A stretch of 41,514 nucleotides of DNA from a virus. A model generated the notes under the pieces. The model had not been told where the DNA came from. It did not search any database and saw only the letters and a list, made by a program, of their open reading frames with translations. The position numbers were made by a program, and so were the translations under genes. Position 1 is the first letter of the stretch. Every line of letters starts with the position of its first letter. The stretch is taken from positions 1-41,514 of IMG/VR virus record IMGVR_UViG_3300029922_000139; one strand, written 5' to 3'. Positions 4,492 to 38,902 of the stretch are shown here, in pieces.

Positions 4492-4749
4492 ATGTTTTTT
4501 AGAAAAATGAGGCATCATCGTCATCAACTTTACTGTGCTTTTGAGACTGAAGCTAAGGCCATTGAAGCAAAAGAAAACGTCTTTGAAAAAGAAGTTTATG
4601 CCGGACAAATTGATTTGAAAGGCAGAATCGAAACAGTCATGGTTCCAACTCAAGTTTGTATCAACTTAGAAAACGAAAAGAGTTGTGACATGAAAGGGCC
4701 TAGAAAAAAAGCATCTGTTGAAGCTTGCGATGAAGAAGATGATTTTTAA
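4492..4749 (+). CDS. Small hypothetical protein
   Basis: 85 residues starting MFFRKMRHHRHQLYC, three bases after the previous stop, with GGAAG about eight bases upstream. The N-terminus is basic and His-rich, the middle is amphipathic (EAKAIEAKENVFEKEVYAG) and the C-terminus is acidic (CDEEDDF). Three cysteines are spread through it without a clear zinc pattern. No family is recognised. It is the last coding sequence before the noncoding stretch at 4750-4997. Confidence 0.6.
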   Translation: MFFRKMRHHRHQLYCAFETEAKAIEAKENVFEKEVYAGQIDLKGRIETVMVPTQVCINLENEKSCDMKGPRKKASVEACDEEDDF

Positions 4750-4757
4750 TAAAAATT

Positions 4758-4984
4758 AAACCACAGCGGAAGCCGTAAAAGAGGCGATGCGGCCCGGAGA
4801 CACATCGCTGGTGGTTTTAGTCAGGGGTTTGCGAGATGGCCGAGTAACACGAAAGTGTAGACTTTCAGGACGGCGCAACTTAATGGGTGGCCTGTAATAA
4901 TAGTCCTAACCCTGGCTTTTTAAAAGATCGGTGCCTGTGAGGGAATAACCGAAGGGCGTGGAGCGGGGAAAACTCCACGCCTTC
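4758..4984 (+). ncRNA. Putative structured RNA with a possible pseudoknot, function unknown
   Basis: The 248 bases between coding sequences carry dense complementarity on the plus strand. Helix 1 pairs 4758-4768 with 4806-4817 (11 bp, one bulged G). Helix 2 pairs 4822-4829 with 4908-4914 (CAGGG-G-TT with AACCCTG). Helix 3 pairs TTGCG 4829-4833 with CGCAA 4874-4878. A hairpin ACAC-GAAA-GTGT (4847-4858) has a GNRA tetraloop. AGGAC 4867-4871 can pair with GTCCT 4903-4907, which crosses helix 3 and makes a pseudoknot. TCGGT 4928-4932 pairs with ACCGA 4948-4952, and a GC-rich hairpin closes the region. I do not recognise a known class. It could be a separate small RNA, a cis-acting leader for the genes at 4998 onward, or a processing element. 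Confidence 0.5.
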
Positions 4985-4986
4985 TT
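4953..4986 (+). terminator. Terminator-like hairpin at the end of the structured region
   Basis: GGCGTGGAG (4955-4963) pairs perfectly with CTCCACGCC (4973-4981) around the loop CGGGGAAAA; one A-T and one G-T pair extend it. The tail TTCTT is short for an intrinsic terminator, so readthrough into the gene at 4998 is likely. It may instead define the 3' end of the RNA above. Confidence 0.55.
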
Positions 4987-4997
4987 AAAGGAGACAA

Positions 4998-5165
4998 ATG
5001 AATAAAATTGCAAAGTCGTCACGTCGTCGAATGGAGTCGCAGGCTAAAGTGAGTCGCACGACAAGAGCCGTGAGAAAGGGTAAGAAGTACAATCCTTTTA
5101 TTCCATCGAAATTGTCTGGCACTTATCCACGAGGGTATTTCGATAAAACTGAAAGGAACGCATGA
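4998..5165 (+). CDS. Small basic hypothetical protein (55 aa)
   Basis: The ATG at 4998 follows AAAGGAGACAA, a strong binding site. The product begins MNKIAKSSRRRMESQAKVSR and is rich in Arg and Lys, with a second half (KKYNPFIPSKLSGTYPRGYF) containing aromatics and prolines. It would bind nucleic acid or an acidic partner; this is inferred only from charge. Its stop overlaps the next start as ATGA, so it is coupled to the following gene. No family is recognised. Confidence 0.65.
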   Translation: MNKIAKSSRRRMESQAKVSRTTRAVRKGKKYNPFIPSKLSGTYPRGYFDKTERNA

Positions 5166-5603: not shown

Positions 5604-5989
5604 GCCACGACCTACCCATGTCACCCGAATTAAAACGAGCCATTCAAGAAGACACAGCACTGAGTGAAAAGCGCATCGAGATCATGAGAGATGATCAGAC
5701 GGTGTTTGCTCTTGCGGTGCTAATGATGGATCTTCATGTGGCAACTCTTCTCAAGAATAAAAATGGTGCTGCAAACTGTTTGATGAAAGCAGGTGTTGTG
5801 CTGAGAAATAATGCTGGCTTTCCTGCCCGCTTCAAAGCAGCCCAACAAGCCGTCATTGATCAAATGAGAAAGCAAGGTCCACCGGACCCTAACAGTGTGC
5901 CGCTTCCAACAGACACGGCGCTCAACATCCGTAAAGAGAATGGTCAAGTGATCGATCTCCCAACGAAGCCACCCGAAGATCAACTATGA
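5600..5989 (+). CDS. Hypothetical early protein
   Basis: 129 residues, mostly helical, beginning MSHDLPMSPELKRAIQEDTA. The central stretch (FALAVLMMDLHVATLLKN) is hydrophobic but broken by charge, so it is probably a buried helix and not a membrane span. The C-terminal third is proline-rich and likely flexible. No family is recognised. It shares four-base overlaps with both neighbours. Confidence 0.65.
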   Translation: MSHDLPMSPELKRAIQEDTALSEKRIEIMRDDQTVFALAVLMMDLHVATLLKNKNGAANCLMKAGVVLRNNAGFPARFKAAQQAVIDQMRKQGPPDPNSVPLPTDTALNIRKENGQVIDLPTKPPEDQL

Positions 5990-6270
5990 TGCCCGATGAT
6001 TACGCAAAGATGAAAGCCGACATTCAAGCCGTGATCGTCTCTTGGTGTGAAGGTGCGAGTGTTGACCCAACGAATCCCGAGCAAGTCATGGCGTGCTCAC
6101 GCTCAATTTGGAACGCGCTTGAAGAGTCAGGAAAGCTTCACCCTGAAATGAGATATCAAGCTTTCTTAGAGGCGATCAAGTGTGAGGCAATCATGGCTCA
6201 ACAAGCGAGCGCACCGAGTTTCTTCTTTCAATTTAAGACCACAGTCAATGTGAAGTGTGAGGCAATATGA
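5986..6270 (+). CDS. Hypothetical early protein
   Basis: 94 residues beginning MMPDDYAKMKADIQAVIVSW. It is helical, and the short run KCEAI occurs twice (near residues 64-68 and again at the C-terminus), which points to a small internal duplication of about 70 bases. No known domain is seen. It sits directly upstream of the exonuclease and overlaps it by four bases. Confidence 0.6.
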   Translation: MMPDDYAKMKADIQAVIVSWCEGASVDPTNPEQVMACSRSIWNALEESGKLHPEMRYQAFLEAIKCEAIMAQQASAPSFFFQFKTTVNVKCEAI

Positions 6271-6791
6271 GCAGTCATGTGATGATCGATCTTGAAACGC
6301 TAGGTAGTACACCAGGATGTGCAATCCTTTCGATCGGTGCAGTGAGGTTTTTCCCGCACTTGAATGGGCTTCAAGCTGAAATGTATAGTCGGGTGAATCT
6401 TCAAAGCTGTTTGAACGCTGGGCTTAAGGTGGAGGGAGACACTTTTTATTGGTGGCTTGATCAAAGTGAGCAAGCCAGAAAAGCCCTTCACGATGACAGA
6501 CTTTACACGCTTGAGGATAACCTGATTGCTCTGAGATCATTCATTAACCCCGAAGATTTTGTGTGGGGGCATGGATCATCTTTTGATCTTGCGGTGCTGG
6601 CATCTGCTTATAAAGCTGTGGGGTTTTCAAAGCCTTGGGAATTTAGACAAGAGCGCGATACACGCACACTTCTTCACCAAGCCGGAATGACGATGACAAA
6701 AAGTGTGGACGCTCACCACGCGTTATTTGATGCGAGACAACAAGCTCTCGTCATCATGCAAGCGATGAAGAAAGTCGGCTGGAATGCCTAA
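6267..6791 (+). CDS. DEDD-type 3'-5' exonuclease (DnaQ-like, Rv2179c/T4 DexA-like group)
   Basis: 174 residues with the RNase H-fold exonuclease signature: Exo I MIDLETLG (residues 6-13), Exo II region WGHGSSFDLAVL (~99-110), and Exo III HHALFDARQQAL (~149-160). The spacing and the RFFPHLNGL...FYWWLDQSEQAR block match the small single-domain phage exonucleases related to T4 DexA and Rv2179c. It would trim single-stranded DNA or RNA 3' ends during replication or recombination. The stop overlaps the next gene's start by eight bases. Confidence 0.85.
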   Translation: MSSHVMIDLETLGSTPGCAILSIGAVRFFPHLNGLQAEMYSRVNLQSCLNAGLKVEGDTFYWWLDQSEQARKALHDDRLYTLEDNLIALRSFINPEDFVWGHGSSFDLAVLASAYKAVGFSKPWEFRQERDTRTLLHQAGMTMTKSVDAHHALFDARQQALVIMQAMKKVGWNA

Positions 6792-8425: not shown

Positions 8426-8431
8426 GTAAAT

Positions 8432-8460
8432 GACTCGCTTTCCGCCCGTGTTAGCGAGTC
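8432..8460 (+). repeat. Inverted repeat just after the SSB gene
   Basis: GACTCGCT (8432-8439) pairs with AGCGAGTC (8453-8460) around a 13-base loop. It stands six bases after the stop and directly before the stronger terminator at 8465; the two hairpins form a tandem pair. Confidence 0.6.
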
Positions 8461-8464
8461 TTTG

Positions 8465-8503
8465 GCCCGATGAGAAGTTATGAACCTCATCGGGCTTTTT
8501 CTT
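8465..8503 (+). terminator. Intrinsic terminator between SSB and polymerase blocks
   Basis: GCCCGATGAG (8465-8474) pairs perfectly with CTCATCGGGC (8486-8495) around an 11-base loop and is followed by TTTTTC TT. This is a textbook intrinsic terminator. It would reduce expression of the polymerase relative to the SSB, or mark the end of one early transcript. Confidence 0.85.
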
Positions 8504-8513
8504 AAGGAGAGTT

Positions 8514-12453: not shown

Positions 12454-12503
12454 GTGCAAACAATATGCAGACCAATATCACTTTGGCAAATTATTTTTAA
12501 CTG

Positions 12504-12586
12504 CGGCCCTGGCCGGAATCGAACCCGCGACCCCCACAGGGGAATTACACCCGTCATGTGGTGCTCTACCACTGAGCTACAAGGCC
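12504..12586 (-). tRNA. tRNA-like gene with enlarged anticodon arm, identity unclear
   Basis: On the minus strand the acceptor GGCCTTG pairs with CAGGGCC (one G-T), the D arm is GCTC-AGTGGTA-GAGC, the T loop is TTCGATT, and the variable loop is GGGTC. T-stem GCGGG/CCGGC has one G-G mismatch. The anticodon stem CCACA/TGTGG encloses 18 bases (TGACGGGTGTAATTCCCC), not seven, and these can form a further GGG/CCC stem. The gene is 83 bases, CCA not encoded. An alternative fold gives a 3-bp anticodon stem with anticodon GAC and a long variable arm (CCCC-TGTG-GGGG). It may be a decayed or unorthodox tRNA. Confidence 0.65.
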
Positions 12587-14461: not shown

Positions 14462-17137
14462 TTAAGTCTTTATACAATAAAGGACAGAGATATTCGCGGG
14501 CCTTGTTTCCGTGCCGATGCGTGGAGTTCCGTTTGTTCCGTCTGAAGTTGGATCGCCCATCACAGGTGTCGTGAAGATCGCGCCACCACCCGTACTTGCA
14601 CCTGATCCGCCACCTGATGCCGACATGTAAACCACTGTTGCCGTATGACTATGACCTTGCATTTGATCGCCTTGAGTTGTTCCTTGAGTGCCGGTATAAC
14701 CGATCGCTGAAATAGTTTGAGAGCCAGCGCCGCGAAGAAAAACGCCCTTGGCATTAGGTAGCGTGAAACTCGTGCCTGATCCACCATAAGTGTAAGCGAT
14801 GGCCGCAAAGAGATTGGCTTGAGTCGTGGTGTTTTCAGTTGACCCATCGGCAGCAAGCCAGCCTGTTGGGCAAGTCGTGCCAGCAAAAGGCATCAACATG
14901 CCCGAAGGAAGCGCTTGAGCTAGAACGTAGCCCGTGCCAGTAGCTTGAACAAATTGACCTGACGGTGAAGGTACAGGGACAGGATTAGTTTCCGCGATCG
15001 TGATAGAGCCAGACGCGTTTGTCACCGTGATGTTTGATCCAGCGGTGATCGCAGCGGCAGTGTAGTTTGTTCCATTTCCTATAGGGATTTGACCATTAGC
15101 AGGTGTTGAATTTATTCCAAGCCCCCCTTGGCCAACAGCTGCCGTGCCTGAAATATCTGTGAACGCGGGTTGAGTCTGTGATGGAACGCCGCTTGTAGAA
15201 ATGGCATTAATCCACTCATGCGACGTGCTTGCAAGTGATTCAACTCCGCCAAGAGACGTTGCTGTTGGGTTTGGGAGTTGGCTTGCTGCCACTAAGCCCG
15301 AAATATCCCTGAAAGCGGGTTGAGTTTGTGACGGGATACCACTTGTAGAAATAGCGTTGATCCATTCATGAGATGTACTTGCAAGTGATTCAATCCCGCC
15401 AAGAGAGGTCGCTGTTGGGTTTGGAAGTTGGCTTGCTGCCACTGATCCAGAAATATCCGTGAACGCTGGCTGAGTCGCTGAAGGAACACCGCTTGTCGAA
15501 ATAGCGTTGATCCATTCATGAGATGTACTTGTAAGTGATTCAATCCCGCCGAGCGTACTCACTGACGGGTTTGGAAGAACACCGGCAAGCTGATTATAAT
15601 TCACCTGGCTACAGTTTGCGACACCCGCTGCCGTGATGCCCGTAGAGTAATCACCACTTGTGCATTGAGCAGGTGAAGAAGCTAAAGCCGTTGCTGTGGC
15701 CGCGTTAGACGTGATCGAAGAAGCAAGATCAACTGTGGTTCTATTATTAACTGAAGAGTCTGAGATAGAAAAATTAGTGGTGAAGTTTAAGTTTGCTCTT
15801 TGAGTCTCGCCCGTAGCGTTGCTCTGTACGGTTTGATAAAAGATTGTGGGCGTGCCAGATAGTTGAGAGTAAGCCACTTGAGAACATGACAAGTTCCCAC
15901 TCGCTGCAATCGCGTCAGCGTATTGGTTTGCTGAGCATCCCGTAGGGACAGCGGCAAGAGCTGTAGCTGTTGCAGCATTCCCGCTCGTGTTGGCCGCGTT
16001 GTTTGGGATATCACCGCTTGAAAGCGTGGTGCCTGACGTGACAAGACCTTTGGCATTGAACGTAACTTTAGGCGAAGTCCCTGCCGTTGCAACTGTTGCT
16101 AGGGTAACTGTTGCTGAGCCAGGTCCAGAAAAAGTAGCGTCACCCGTTCCGCCAGTGACATAGTTTCCAGCGGCTTGTTTTCCGTTGAAAGTAGTCCAAT
16201 CCGCTGAAGCAAGACACCCGGCTTGTGAACCTGATGCCACATTACAGGTAACGGTTCCGGCCGTGTTCACCAGTGGTGACGAGAAGGTAAGAGCGGCTTG
16301 TTTTCCGTTAAAGGTGTTCCAATCGGCGGCATCTAAAAGCCCTGGCTGACTCGTGTTTGCCGTTTGAACATTCACCGTTACGTTTGGCCCAACAGTGGAG
16401 TTGGCACCGCTTCCAATAAAAACACCCGTAGTAGATGAACTGATGGTCCCTGGTGTGAGAGAACCCTGTTTGCTGTTGAAGGTGTTCCAATCGGTGCTAT
16501 CTAAATACCCGTTGTGGGTTGTGTCTGCAACGTGCTGAGAGATGGTGGTGCCTGAACCAATGACGGCACCTGATCCGCTACCTACTGTGATGCCATCCGT
16601 ACCACTATCAGTTAGGTTTCCAAACGTGAGAGCGCTTTGCTTTCCGTTGAAAGTAGTCCAATCCGCTGAAGCAAGACACCCGGCTTGTGAACCTGATGCC
16701 GATTGACAAGTGATGTTGGGAGTAGCACCACCTGAACTTGAAAGAGGGCTTGATGCCGTAACAGACGACACACCCTGAGAAAGAGTGTAGTAGCCAAGCA
16801 CGCCTTCAGCATTAGTGCCGTAATATTGAGTGTCACCCGGTGTGGCAGAATCTCCCACCAAGGAAACATTTCCGGCAGTATTGACGAGAGAATCGATAAA
16901 GGTGAGCGGCGTTTGTTTTCCATTCAACTGAGCTTGCACATCACTCGTGACGTTTTGAATATACCCAAGCTCAGTCGTTGTGACGGGGCTTGAAACAACA
17001 TCGCTACTTCCGTTGAGCACCATCACTCGGTTTGGAGTCCCGAAAGAAAGAGTCAATGTTGTATCGATGGTGCAAGAATTGACTTCAAACGCTTGCGCGG
17101 GTTGAGCTAGAAATAATGAGAGTAAAAGAAAAAGCAT
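14462..17137 (-). CDS. Long tail fibre/collar protein with an N-terminal signal peptide
   Basis: 891 residues. The N-terminus MLFLLLSLFLAQPAQAFE is a Sec-type signal peptide with an A-Q-A cleavage site, behind a good binding site (GTAGGAGAAACCTAAA). The shaft holds several D-W-x-T-F-N-x-K-Q repeats, glycine/serine beta-rich stretches and a tandem triplicate of 50 residues near 520-670. The C-terminal ~190 residues are a phage tail collar domain (MLMPFAGTTCPTGWLAADGS onward) whose tip closely matches the gene at 18209. This is the probable host-recognition fibre. The signal peptide is unusual, because virions are assembled in the cytoplasm. Confidence 0.85.
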   Translation of the reverse strand: MLFLLLSLFLAQPAQAFEVNSCTIDTTLTLSFGTPNRVMVLNGSSDVVSSPVTTTELGYIQNVTSDVQAQLNGKQTPLTFIDSLVNTAGNVSLVGDSATPGDTQYYGTNAEGVLGYYTLSQGVSSVTASSPLSSSGGATPNITCQSASGSQAGCLASADWTTFNGKQSALTFGNLTDSGTDGITVGSGSGAVIGSGTTISQHVADTTHNGYLDSTDWNTFNSKQGSLTPGTISSSTTGVFIGSGANSTVGPNVTVNVQTANTSQPGLLDAADWNTFNGKQAALTFSSPLVNTAGTVTCNVASGSQAGCLASADWTTFNGKQAAGNYVTGGTGDATFSGPGSATVTLATVATAGTSPKVTFNAKGLVTSGTTLSSGDIPNNAANTSGNAATATALAAVPTGCSANQYADAIAASGNLSCSQVAYSQLSGTPTIFYQTVQSNATGETQRANLNFTTNFSISDSSVNNRTTVDLASSITSNAATATALASSPAQCTSGDYSTGITAAGVANCSQVNYNQLAGVLPNPSVSTLGGIESLTSTSHEWINAISTSGVPSATQPAFTDISGSVAASQLPNPTATSLGGIESLASTSHEWINAISTSGIPSQTQPAFRDISGLVAASQLPNPTATSLGGVESLASTSHEWINAISTSGVPSQTQPAFTDISGTAAVGQGGLGINSTPANGQIPIGNGTNYTAAAITAGSNITVTNASGSITIAETNPVPVPSPSGQFVQATGTGYVLAQALPSGMLMPFAGTTCPTGWLAADGSTENTTTQANLFAAIAYTYGGSGTSFTLPNAKGVFLRGAGSQTISAIGYTGTQGTTQGDQMQGHSHTATVVYMSASGGGSGASTGGGAIFTTPVMGDPTSDGTNGTPRIGTETRPANISVLYCIKT
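15129..15578 (-). repeat. Three tandem ~150-bp repeats inside the fibre gene
   Basis: Three consecutive 150-base units, each coding a 50-residue block starting LPNP and containing ESLxSTSHEWINAISTSG. The words AAATATC at 15151, 15301 and 15451 show the 150-base period. Units differ at a few residues. Such repeats can expand or contract by recombination and change fibre length. Confidence 0.85.
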
Positions 17138-18208: not shown

Positions 18209-18925
18209 TTATAGCTTGATAACGTAGTATTGGCTGATGTTAGCCGGATAAGTTTGAGTTCCGATGCGTGGGGTGCCATTTGTCCCATCTGTTTGCGGAT
18301 CGCCCATCACTGGTGCCGTGAACAGAGCAGCCCCACCCGTACTCGCGCCTGATCCACCAGCGTTTCCAGTCATGAAAGCCTGTGTCGCCGTGTGAATATG
18401 GCCCTGCATTTGATCGCCTTGAACGGCTGCCAAAGTCCCTGAGTAACTAATGCCGCTGATCGTTTGTGATCCAGCGCCACGAACGAAGATACCGGAATGG
18501 TTAGGCACATTGAAAGTTGTCGAGCCATCACCCACACCAAAGGTAGTGCCGATCACAGCAAACAAAGTCGCGTAGGTCGTTCTTGAAATAGCCGAGCCAT
18601 CGCAAAGCTGCCATCCCGCTGGTGCTGTGTTTGTTGGCCACATCGTGATTTCACCTGATGGGCGAAATGCGGCTTGAATTTGAGCAAGCAGAGTTGCTGG
18701 TGTGGCGTTATCTAAAACGTTTGCACCTAAACAGTTTGCTATGTACTGAGCAATTTGAGACACAACGTAGGTGGCTTGTCTCAGAGCTTTGTTGTTCAGT
18801 GCTGATGAAGCTACACCGGATTGTTGGCCGATCGGAAGTTGGGCATTAGCGAGGTAGGAAGCTTGACTAAGAACATTGGCCCCTGAACCTGTTGCAAACG
18901 CGACGAAATCATTTTCAACTGACAT
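18209..18925 (-). CDS. Phage tail collar domain protein (short fibre)
   Basis: 238 residues. After an N-terminal helical anchor (ALRQATYVVSQIAQYIANCL), the collar domain starts at EITMWPTNTAPAGWQLCDGS and continues through FNVPNHSGIFVRGAG to NGTPRIGTQTYPANISQYYV. The last ~95 residues are nearly the same as in the long fibre at 14462, so one is a duplicate of the other. The start has AAAGGAG upstream. It would be a baseplate-proximal fibre or adhesin. Confidence 0.85.
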   Translation of the reverse strand: MSVENDFVAFATGSGANVLSQASYLANAQLPIGQQSGVASSALNNKALRQATYVVSQIAQYIANCLGANVLDNATPATLLAQIQAAFRPSGEITMWPTNTAPAGWQLCDGSAISRTTYATLFAVIGTTFGVGDGSTTFNVPNHSGIFVRGAGSQTISGISYSGTLAAVQGDQMQGHIHTATQAFMTGNAGGSGASTGGAALFTAPVMGDPQTDGTNGTPRIGTQTYPANISQYYVIKL

Positions 18926-37145: not shown

Positions 37146-38902
37146 GCTTCAATCGCCTTTTGATCTTTCGTTACCGCGCGCTTACGAGCAGCGTCTTTCG
37201 TCTTCTTGTCCACGACTTTTTTCTTTCCTGAGAAAAGCTTGGTGAACTTCTTCCACCGTGAATCCTTGTTGATGCCCATCTTCTTGATAGTCTCCTTTGG
37301 TTCGTTAGGTCCATTGCCCGGATCACCCACATTGGTGCTCTCGTTTTCTGGATCAATTGGCTGATTCGGATCGATTGGATCATCTTCAGGGGCTGGCGGA
37401 AGTTCGTTCTCTGCCTCACTGATATCTTCATCCGTGATGTGTGAGAAAATTCCAGTTTCAGCGCCAGCTTGTTGAAGCTCTTTCATTCCGGTTGATGTAG
37501 AAATCAAGCCATCTTGGTGAGCAGCCACAACAGCGTTCGTGATCGCAGTCGTGATCTCAGCTTTCTCTTTTGCATTCATCTGCCAGAGCGGCGTGAACGT
37601 GAAGGTTAAATCTTTTGGGGCTGGCTCACCGAATGTCGATTGCCACAGAATCTTGATCATGATCTCAATCGGATTACGCAAGTAGGCTTCTTGTTTTGCG
37701 TTGATGGAGTCGTAATAGTTTCTGATATCCGTATCGCCGTTACCGCCTAAGCCCGCTGGCGATTGTCCGAGAAGTCTCACAAGTGGAGTCTCGCTTGCAC
37801 CGGATAGTTGCTCACCAAACTGGCCGAGCATGTCGCTTAGTCCAGCGAAGCTGTAGGCCGTCGTTGCAAACGCATCGTTTTTATCGAGTAGGGTTAAGCC
37901 TTCTGAGTTTTGAAACTGCCGCATGTATTCAAACATTTCGACAAGTCCCTGCTTAGCTTCACCACCGGATGACAAGATTTCTCGGAAGCCGTCGATGCTC
38001 ACAGTTCTTAGAAGTGCTCGTCCAATGAGCCCACCAGCGGAAGCCGTTGCGGTTTCAAACTCAATCAGCCTATCCCACATGCGCTCGATGATCGATTCAT
38101 CCCACATCATCTCGGTGATCGCTTGAAAGAATGGGAGCTTGTGTCCACCCATTCTGAAACAACGAGTGTGATGCACACGAACGCGAGCAGCGGTGAAAGC
38201 GCCAGCTGTTTGTGAGGTTTGTTTTGCTACGGTGTTTTCACCCGCTTGCGGCGAGACTGTTTCTGAACCCGCGCCAGGGACTTGGGCTGGATCGTTAAGA
38301 TTATTTCCAAGCACGATATCGTAGTAGGCTGGGAGTCCAATTTCTGGGCCTTCATCAATAATTTGGCTGAGCACGGGATTAAGTTGCCATCGGTCGTAAA
38401 CAGCAATGCCTTTAAACTGTCCTTCTTCGATCGTGTCTGGATCAAGTGGAGTTTCCAAGTCTTGCCCATCAATTTGAAAAACTCCGATTGCCCCGCCATA
38501 AAGTCTACCCCACGCTGTGGTGTCACGAATGCGTTGCCAAATTTGAATGCGAGACATGGCGGCCTTGAAATCTTGAACTTTGTCCGCACCATCGTTGGTG
38601 TTGAGAATCACGCCAGCTTTCGTCATGTCTTCAGCAACACAATCGATCACTCGTCCCGCGATCCATGATCCACGGTACATCGCTTCAAGCTGTGTGCGAT
38701 TGCGTGTGAGAAGATTGAACTGATAGCGACCGTAGGAAAGTTGATTCGTGTCTCCGTTCTCTTCACCGAGTGGAGTCACGCCGAGCTTCATCGCTAGATT
38801 TCTAAAACCGTCAGCGGTGTGTTTGGAGTGCTTAGGAACAATGGTAGGCTTTTGGGTTTGCTCGAAAACTTTCAAGCCCGGATCACTTTTCTTTTTTGAC
38901 AT
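37124..38902 (-). CDS. Portal protein (DUF1073 family)
   Basis: 592 residues. RNRTQLEAMYRGSWIAGRVI (V-D-x-x-x-E-D-M-T-K motif follows), AWGRLYGGAIGVFQIDGQDL, FFQAITEMMWDESIIERMWD, LVRLLGQSPAGLGGNGDTDI and IRNYYDSINAKQEAYL are DUF1073 portal hallmarks. The C-terminal ~90 residues are Pro/Glu/Asn-rich and then Lys-rich. The dodecameric ring lets DNA in and out. No Acb1-type anti-CBASS domain is visible at the end. Confidence 0.9.
   Translation of the reverse strand: MSKKKSDPGLKVFEQTQKPTIVPKHSKHTADGFRNLAMKLGVTPLGEENGDTNQLSYGRYQFNLLTRNRTQLEAMYRGSWIAGRVIDCVAEDMTKAGVILNTNDGADKVQDFKAAMSRIQIWQRIRDTTAWGRLYGGAIGVFQIDGQDLETPLDPDTIEEGQFKGIAVYDRWQLNPVLSQIIDEGPEIGLPAYYDIVLGNNLNDPAQVPGAGSETVSPQAGENTVAKQTSQTAGAFTAARVRVHHTRCFRMGGHKLPFFQAITEMMWDESIIERMWDRLIEFETATASAGGLIGRALLRTVSIDGFREILSSGGEAKQGLVEMFEYMRQFQNSEGLTLLDKNDAFATTAYSFAGLSDMLGQFGEQLSGASETPLVRLLGQSPAGLGGNGDTDIRNYYDSINAKQEAYLRNPIEIMIKILWQSTFGEPAPKDLTFTFTPLWQMNAKEKAEITTAITNAVVAAHQDGLISTSTGMKELQQAGAETGIFSHITDEDISEAENELPPAPEDDPIDPNQPIDPENESTNVGDPGNGPNEPKETIKKMGINKDSRWKKFTKLFSGKKKVVDKKTKDAARKRAVTKDQKAIEAWLMKKL

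Follow-up and report, generated by a model that had tools for sequence, protein, structure and literature searches.

Two early genes of an uncultivated phage are separated by a conserved pair of RNA hairpins (element 1, positions 4926-4986), the structure of which is well supported. Positions are those of the window, i.e. the whole 41,514-nt stretch of viral DNA that was analysed (IMG/VR record IMGVR_UViG_3300029922_000139). A second twin-hairpin element (element 2, 8432-8502) was found in the gap 8426-8513 and is present in both this phage and a related one. We cautiously favour the reading, based on sequence comparison, that the twin-hairpin elements are operon-internal terminators or RNA 3′-end elements with a conserved recognition loop. 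The first-pass annotation had placed a structured RNA with a possible pseudoknot in the same gap as element 1. A structured element does exist there, but in the 3′ ~60 bases of the gap (4926-4986); the pseudoknot part was without support.

The early operon lies on the + strand at about 2.3-11.1 kb of the 41.5-kb phage contig, and includes genes for an SNF2-type helicase, an Enc34/Gp2.5-like ssDNA-binding protein, an exonuclease-like protein and DNA polymerase A. Its genes overlap or are 3-28 nt apart, with the exception of two junctions: a 248-nt gap (4750-4997) between an 85-aa ORF (stop at 4749) and a 55-aa ORF (ATG at 4998), and an 88-nt gap (8426-8513). The 248-nt gap pointed out in the first-pass annotation is thus real, and is the longest in an otherwise tightly packed operon. 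The related phage (contig IMGVR_UViG_3300041809_000550; L004/L007, G001) encodes early proteins whose identity to those of the window is 79% for the helicase, 89% for the polymerase and 96% for the ssDNA-binding protein. At the corresponding position, the related phage lacks the genes at 5986-6791 that encode a 94-aa protein and an exonuclease-like protein of 174 aa; the early operon is mosaic. An early leader at 2190-2324 adjoins an HTH repressor gene and contains conserved AAAAAGATAGATCA and TTGC-rich repeats common to L004; it is likely an operator plus promoter.

When the window was searched with Rfam 15 (4227 models), a tRNA was the sole match at gathering score, and the gap 4750-4997 had none. 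The tRNA-Val (GAC) is located at about 12503-12586 on the - strand, between 364-aa and 186-aa ORFs. Repeated sequence was observed in an 891-aa ORF (14462-17137): three tandem 150-nt repeats are present at 15146-15595, and a 248-nt stretch (14489-14736) recurs at 71% identity in a 238-aa ORF (18236-18483).

Table 1. Positions of the two twin-hairpin elements and neighbouring features in the window
Feature	Position	Strand	Description
85-aa ORF	4492-4749	+	No family; 36% GC vs 48% for window; present or absent jointly with 4750-4925
Non-coding stretch with the previously drawn helices and pseudoknot	4750-4925	+	Structured RNA unsupported; missing from related phage along with 85-aa gene
Element 1, hairpin A (1A)	4926-4953	+	Stem TCGGT/ACCGA, inner CCY/GGG; aligned to L004 2319-2346
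Element 1, hairpin B (1B)	4953-4983	+	11-bp stem, loop CGGGGAAAA, T-rich TTCTT at 3′ end; terminator-like
Ribosome-binding region (AAAGGAG) of 55-aa ORF	4987-4997	+	Directly 3′ of TTCTT; layout shared with L004
Element 2, hairpin A (2A)	8432-8460	+	Stem GACTCGC/GCGAGTC around invariant 15-nt loop TTTCCGCCCGTGTTA
Element 2, hairpin B (2B)	8464-8502	+	11-bp stem, then T-rich tract TTTTTCTT, then SD of 63-aa gene

Element 1 was the only part of the 248-nt gap that folded clearly better than shuffled sequence (z = -3.0; 2/200 shuffles as good). Its copy in L004 also beat shuffles (z about -2.7). Hairpin 1B alone had z = -3.8, and hairpin 1A alone z = -1.4. Alignment of the two phage sequences, the number of independent sequences available for each element, showed 49 identical bases in 62 columns, and 19/19 drawn pairs form in both phages. 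Between the stem arms of hairpin 1B (GGCGTGGAG and CTCCACGCC, 4955-4981) and those of L004 there are three double compensatory changes and one one-sided change, and none of the 11 pairs is broken (p = 2e-4 in a simulation with the same number of substitutions placed at random). No double change was found when the pairing partner was slid by 1-3 columns. A pair-counting column-shuffle control, which has low power with two sequences, gave 74/500. Covariation, the check proposed for the structured RNA in the first-pass annotation, was thus observed for the terminal hairpin. Hairpin 1A gives no covariation evidence because its stem pairs are invariant. The loops of both hairpins (GCCYGTK-GAGGGAAWA in 1A and CGGGGRAAW in 1B) are conserved in the two phages.

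At the same junction in the related phage, the TAA of the upstream gene is directly followed by AGTTCGGTGCCCGTTGAGGGAAAAACCGAAAGGGGCTGAGCGGGGGAATCTCAGCCCCTTCTTT and then by the SD and the next gene, and element 1 is directly 3′ of the upstream stop codon. The ORFs downstream of element 1 are unrelated between the two phages; thus, element 1 is tied to the junction and not to one gene. This finding bears on the possibility that element 1 is a translational switch that hides the ribosome site of the gene directly downstream. CCTTCTT at the end of hairpin 1B adjoins AAAGGAG, and weak pairing between the two is feasible; however, it would span about 4 bp, and a switch acting on unrelated genes in the two phages is quite improbable. 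The U-rich tract of element 1 is poor (TTCTT / TTCTTT only). The combination of a strong stem and a poor U-tract suggests that element 1 is leaky, or is mainly a 3′ stabiliser. A terminator scan with loops up to 8 did not list hairpin 1B, whose loop is 9.

The stem of hairpin 2A differs from that of the relative by three double compensatory changes, with 1/7 pairs broken; the p-value of 0.007 is post hoc and not that of a pre-planned test, the 88-nt gap having been inspected after element 1 was seen. The loop of hairpin 2A lies within 19 consecutive identical bases; elsewhere in the gap, identity is 49%. Hairpin 2B has the same shape in the relative (L004 4864-4906). A GC-rich stem directly followed by a U-rich tract, as in intrinsic terminators, is present in element 2, the tract in the relative being TTTTTTATT, and element 2 has the sequence of a working terminator. 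The 63-aa gene 3′ of element 2 is 87% identical between the phages, and the ssb gene is on the other side of the gap. GCCYGTK is found in the hairpin A loops of both elements; with 29 occurrences of this motif in the window, the link between the two elements is suggestive only.

In Rfam, the anti-hemB family (RF02837) matched element 2 over its whole length at 25.2 bits (E = 3.4e-4), and RF02278 matched it at 13.2 bits. The relative's copy scored 19.0 bits with anti-hemB (E = 0.018) and 19.0 bits with RF02278. None of these scores comes near the gathering cut-off, 49.5 for RF02837 and 50 for RF02278, and both families were absent from the Rfam matches of element 1. RF02278 is a betaproteobacterial family of toxic sRNAs with two hairpins and an unpaired CU-rich stretch, which is predicted to pair with ribosome sites (PMC5688073). 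The phage elements share with these families two hairpins in about 60-80 nt, a pyrimidine-rich conserved first loop and a terminator-shaped second hairpin; in element 2 this two-hairpin build is present in both phages. They differ in being embedded between operon genes with a ribosome site immediately after, and the phage loop UUUCCGCCCGUGUUA differs from the anti-hemB consensus CUUCUCCUCCCUG. Element 2 resembles anti-hemB and toxic sRNAs in build and is not a member of either family.

This resemblance raises the possibility of 3′-UTR-derived, trans-acting double-hairpin small RNAs, in which loop A would pair with ribosome sites on host or phage messages and hairpin B would serve as the sRNA terminator. 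The sub-threshold matches to element 2 in both phages, the two-hairpin, CU-rich design described for RF02278, the invariance of TTTCCGCCCGTGTTA over a rewritten stem and a terminase closest to that of a Burkholderia phage (57%) are consistent with such RNAs. However, the scores fall far short of the cut-offs, element 1 matches neither family, and sites complementary to the loops in both phages were of chance length only. We consider this explanation unlikely. It is rather more doubtful still that early-operon transcription also yields, at gene junctions, two small double-hairpin regulatory RNAs whose conserved loops, GCCYGUK... and UUUCCGCCCGUGUUA, would bind a factor or base-pair with messages of the host or the phage.

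Both elements lie at an early-gene junction, keep their position in the related phage, and end within a few bases of the ribosome site of the gene that follows. In each, the loops are kept and at least one stem has been rewritten by compensatory changes. If the elements are operon-internal terminators or RNA 3′-end elements, hairpin B would be a leaky intrinsic terminator and form the RNA 3′ end, acting strongly at element 2 and weakly at element 1. It would lower expression of the genes downstream and protect the upstream RNA, and hairpin A would offer its conserved loop to a protein or base-pairing partner. The elements resemble the intrinsic (Rho-independent) terminators of phage operons in the GC-rich hairpin and T-rich tract, clear at element 2 and weaker at element 1. 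Unlike plain terminators, they have a preceding second hairpin with a conserved loop; the terminator loop of element 1, CGGGGRAAW, is also conserved, whereas plain terminators need no such conservation.

Two near-adjacent hairpins within about 60-75 nt of an early operon, with a terminator-like hairpin downstream within the operon, also recall the put sites of phage HK022, and a cis-acting antitermination function would have the twin hairpins modify RNA polymerase to read through later terminators. The put RNAs are about 70 nt long with two stem-loops, and are located just after, or about 270 nt after, early promoters (PMC9378689). The likeness is one of layout only: in both cases an early phage transcript carries two stem-loops, and their combined length is similar. 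The phage elements are deep inside the operon and not near a promoter, element 1 being about 2.6 kb into it, and a terminator shape forms the end of element 2 itself. A put-like function is very improbable.

In the 5′ part of the gap, a novel pseudoknotted phage RNA at 4758-4922 is, in our estimation, hardly credible. The gap is unusually long for this early operon, and the helices of the first-pass annotation can all be drawn: helix 1 (AAACCAC-AGCG / CGCT-G-GTGGTTT, 4758-4768 / 4806-4817), GTCAGGG / CCCTGGC, an ACAC-GAAA-GTGT hairpin, and TTGCG/CGCAA (from 4829 and 4874) crossing AGGAC/GTCCT (from 4867 and 4903). However, most of them are within chance expectation as judged by shuffles. The fold of 4758-4922 had z = -0.6 (49/200 shuffles equally good), and 31% of 165-nt windows of the same genome were as low in folding energy. 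The crossing helices have summed stacks of -18.75 kcal/mol. When a crossing was counted as two helices, each 5 bp or longer, with stability at least that observed, one was present in 133/500 dinucleotide shuffles (27%) of the 104-nt stretch 4819-4922 and in 342/500 shuffles of the wider 176-nt stretch. The 176-nt stretch itself offers a different, stronger crossing, AAACCAC/GTGGTTT with CGGCC/GGCCG.

The Rfam check suggested earlier for the gap gave no match at gathering score (best 18.3 and 17.3 bits, against 58.6 and 80), and at E = 10 nothing but two sub-threshold matches. Searches of GenBank phages and of PLSDB gave no homologue of 4758-4922; in IMG/VR, pattern scans picked up a single contig, 99% identical, and otherwise unrelated chance matches. 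The proposed likeness to the P3/P7 core of group I introns, a drawable crossing of two short helices, was not borne out: the gap has no room for P4-P6, no group I model matched at E = 10, and the crossing occurs at chance frequency. Other ribozymes were rejected on the same absence of Rfam support at E = 10 and the chance-level crossing, and a tRNA-like RNA or tmRNA on the result of ARAGORN, which reported the tRNA-Val alone. Hidden coding was also rejected. The longest + strand ORF in the gap (36 aa, 4787-4897) has a per-codon score typical of wrong frames and lower than that of every known-gene segment of the phage. No sigma-70-like site was found immediately upstream that could serve as a promoter for the RNA, and nothing scored better than shuffles. 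An antisense role toward the portal gene was rejected since the 13-nt match CAGCGGAAGCCGT, an identity between 4764-4776 and 38035-38047 (portal gene, antisense strand), is near chance. The relative's portal gene matches the same gap stretch at 92% over about 23 nt, also near chance.

At the related-phage junction the 85-aa gene and the entire 4750-4925 stretch are missing, and elsewhere in the related contig 4750-4925 has short chance-type matches only. The block 4492-4925, consisting of the 85-aa ORF and about 175 nt of non-coding DNA, is cassette-like; it is also present in the near-identical contig. The simplest reading of 4750-4925 is as the non-coding end of an accessory cassette made up of the 85-aa gene and this tail, and not as a pseudoknotted RNA. 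With two genomes, gain of the block is indistinguishable from loss.

No further copy of element 1 was found within the two phages, and in IMG/VR and GTDB, pattern scans turned up none that folded alike. It was not found in 399 Burkholderiales genomes, in a search that had no positive control; in the same genomes the element 2 loop had one single-mismatch match, inspected only briefly, which is about the chance expectation. Only two IMG/VR contigs were close enough to serve as further relatives, and no prophage was found. GenBank phages showed <60% identity to the terminase, DNA polymerase, exonuclease and helicase. The terminase alone hints at a proteobacterial host, perhaps in Burkholderiales.

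If the elements are terminators alone, this case shows how easily a pseudoknot can be drawn in any 250-base non-coding stretch. If their loops are recognised, they would give the early operon of an uncultivated phage two compact sites of control that lend themselves to testing, and possibly represent a phage counterpart of bacterial double-hairpin small RNAs.
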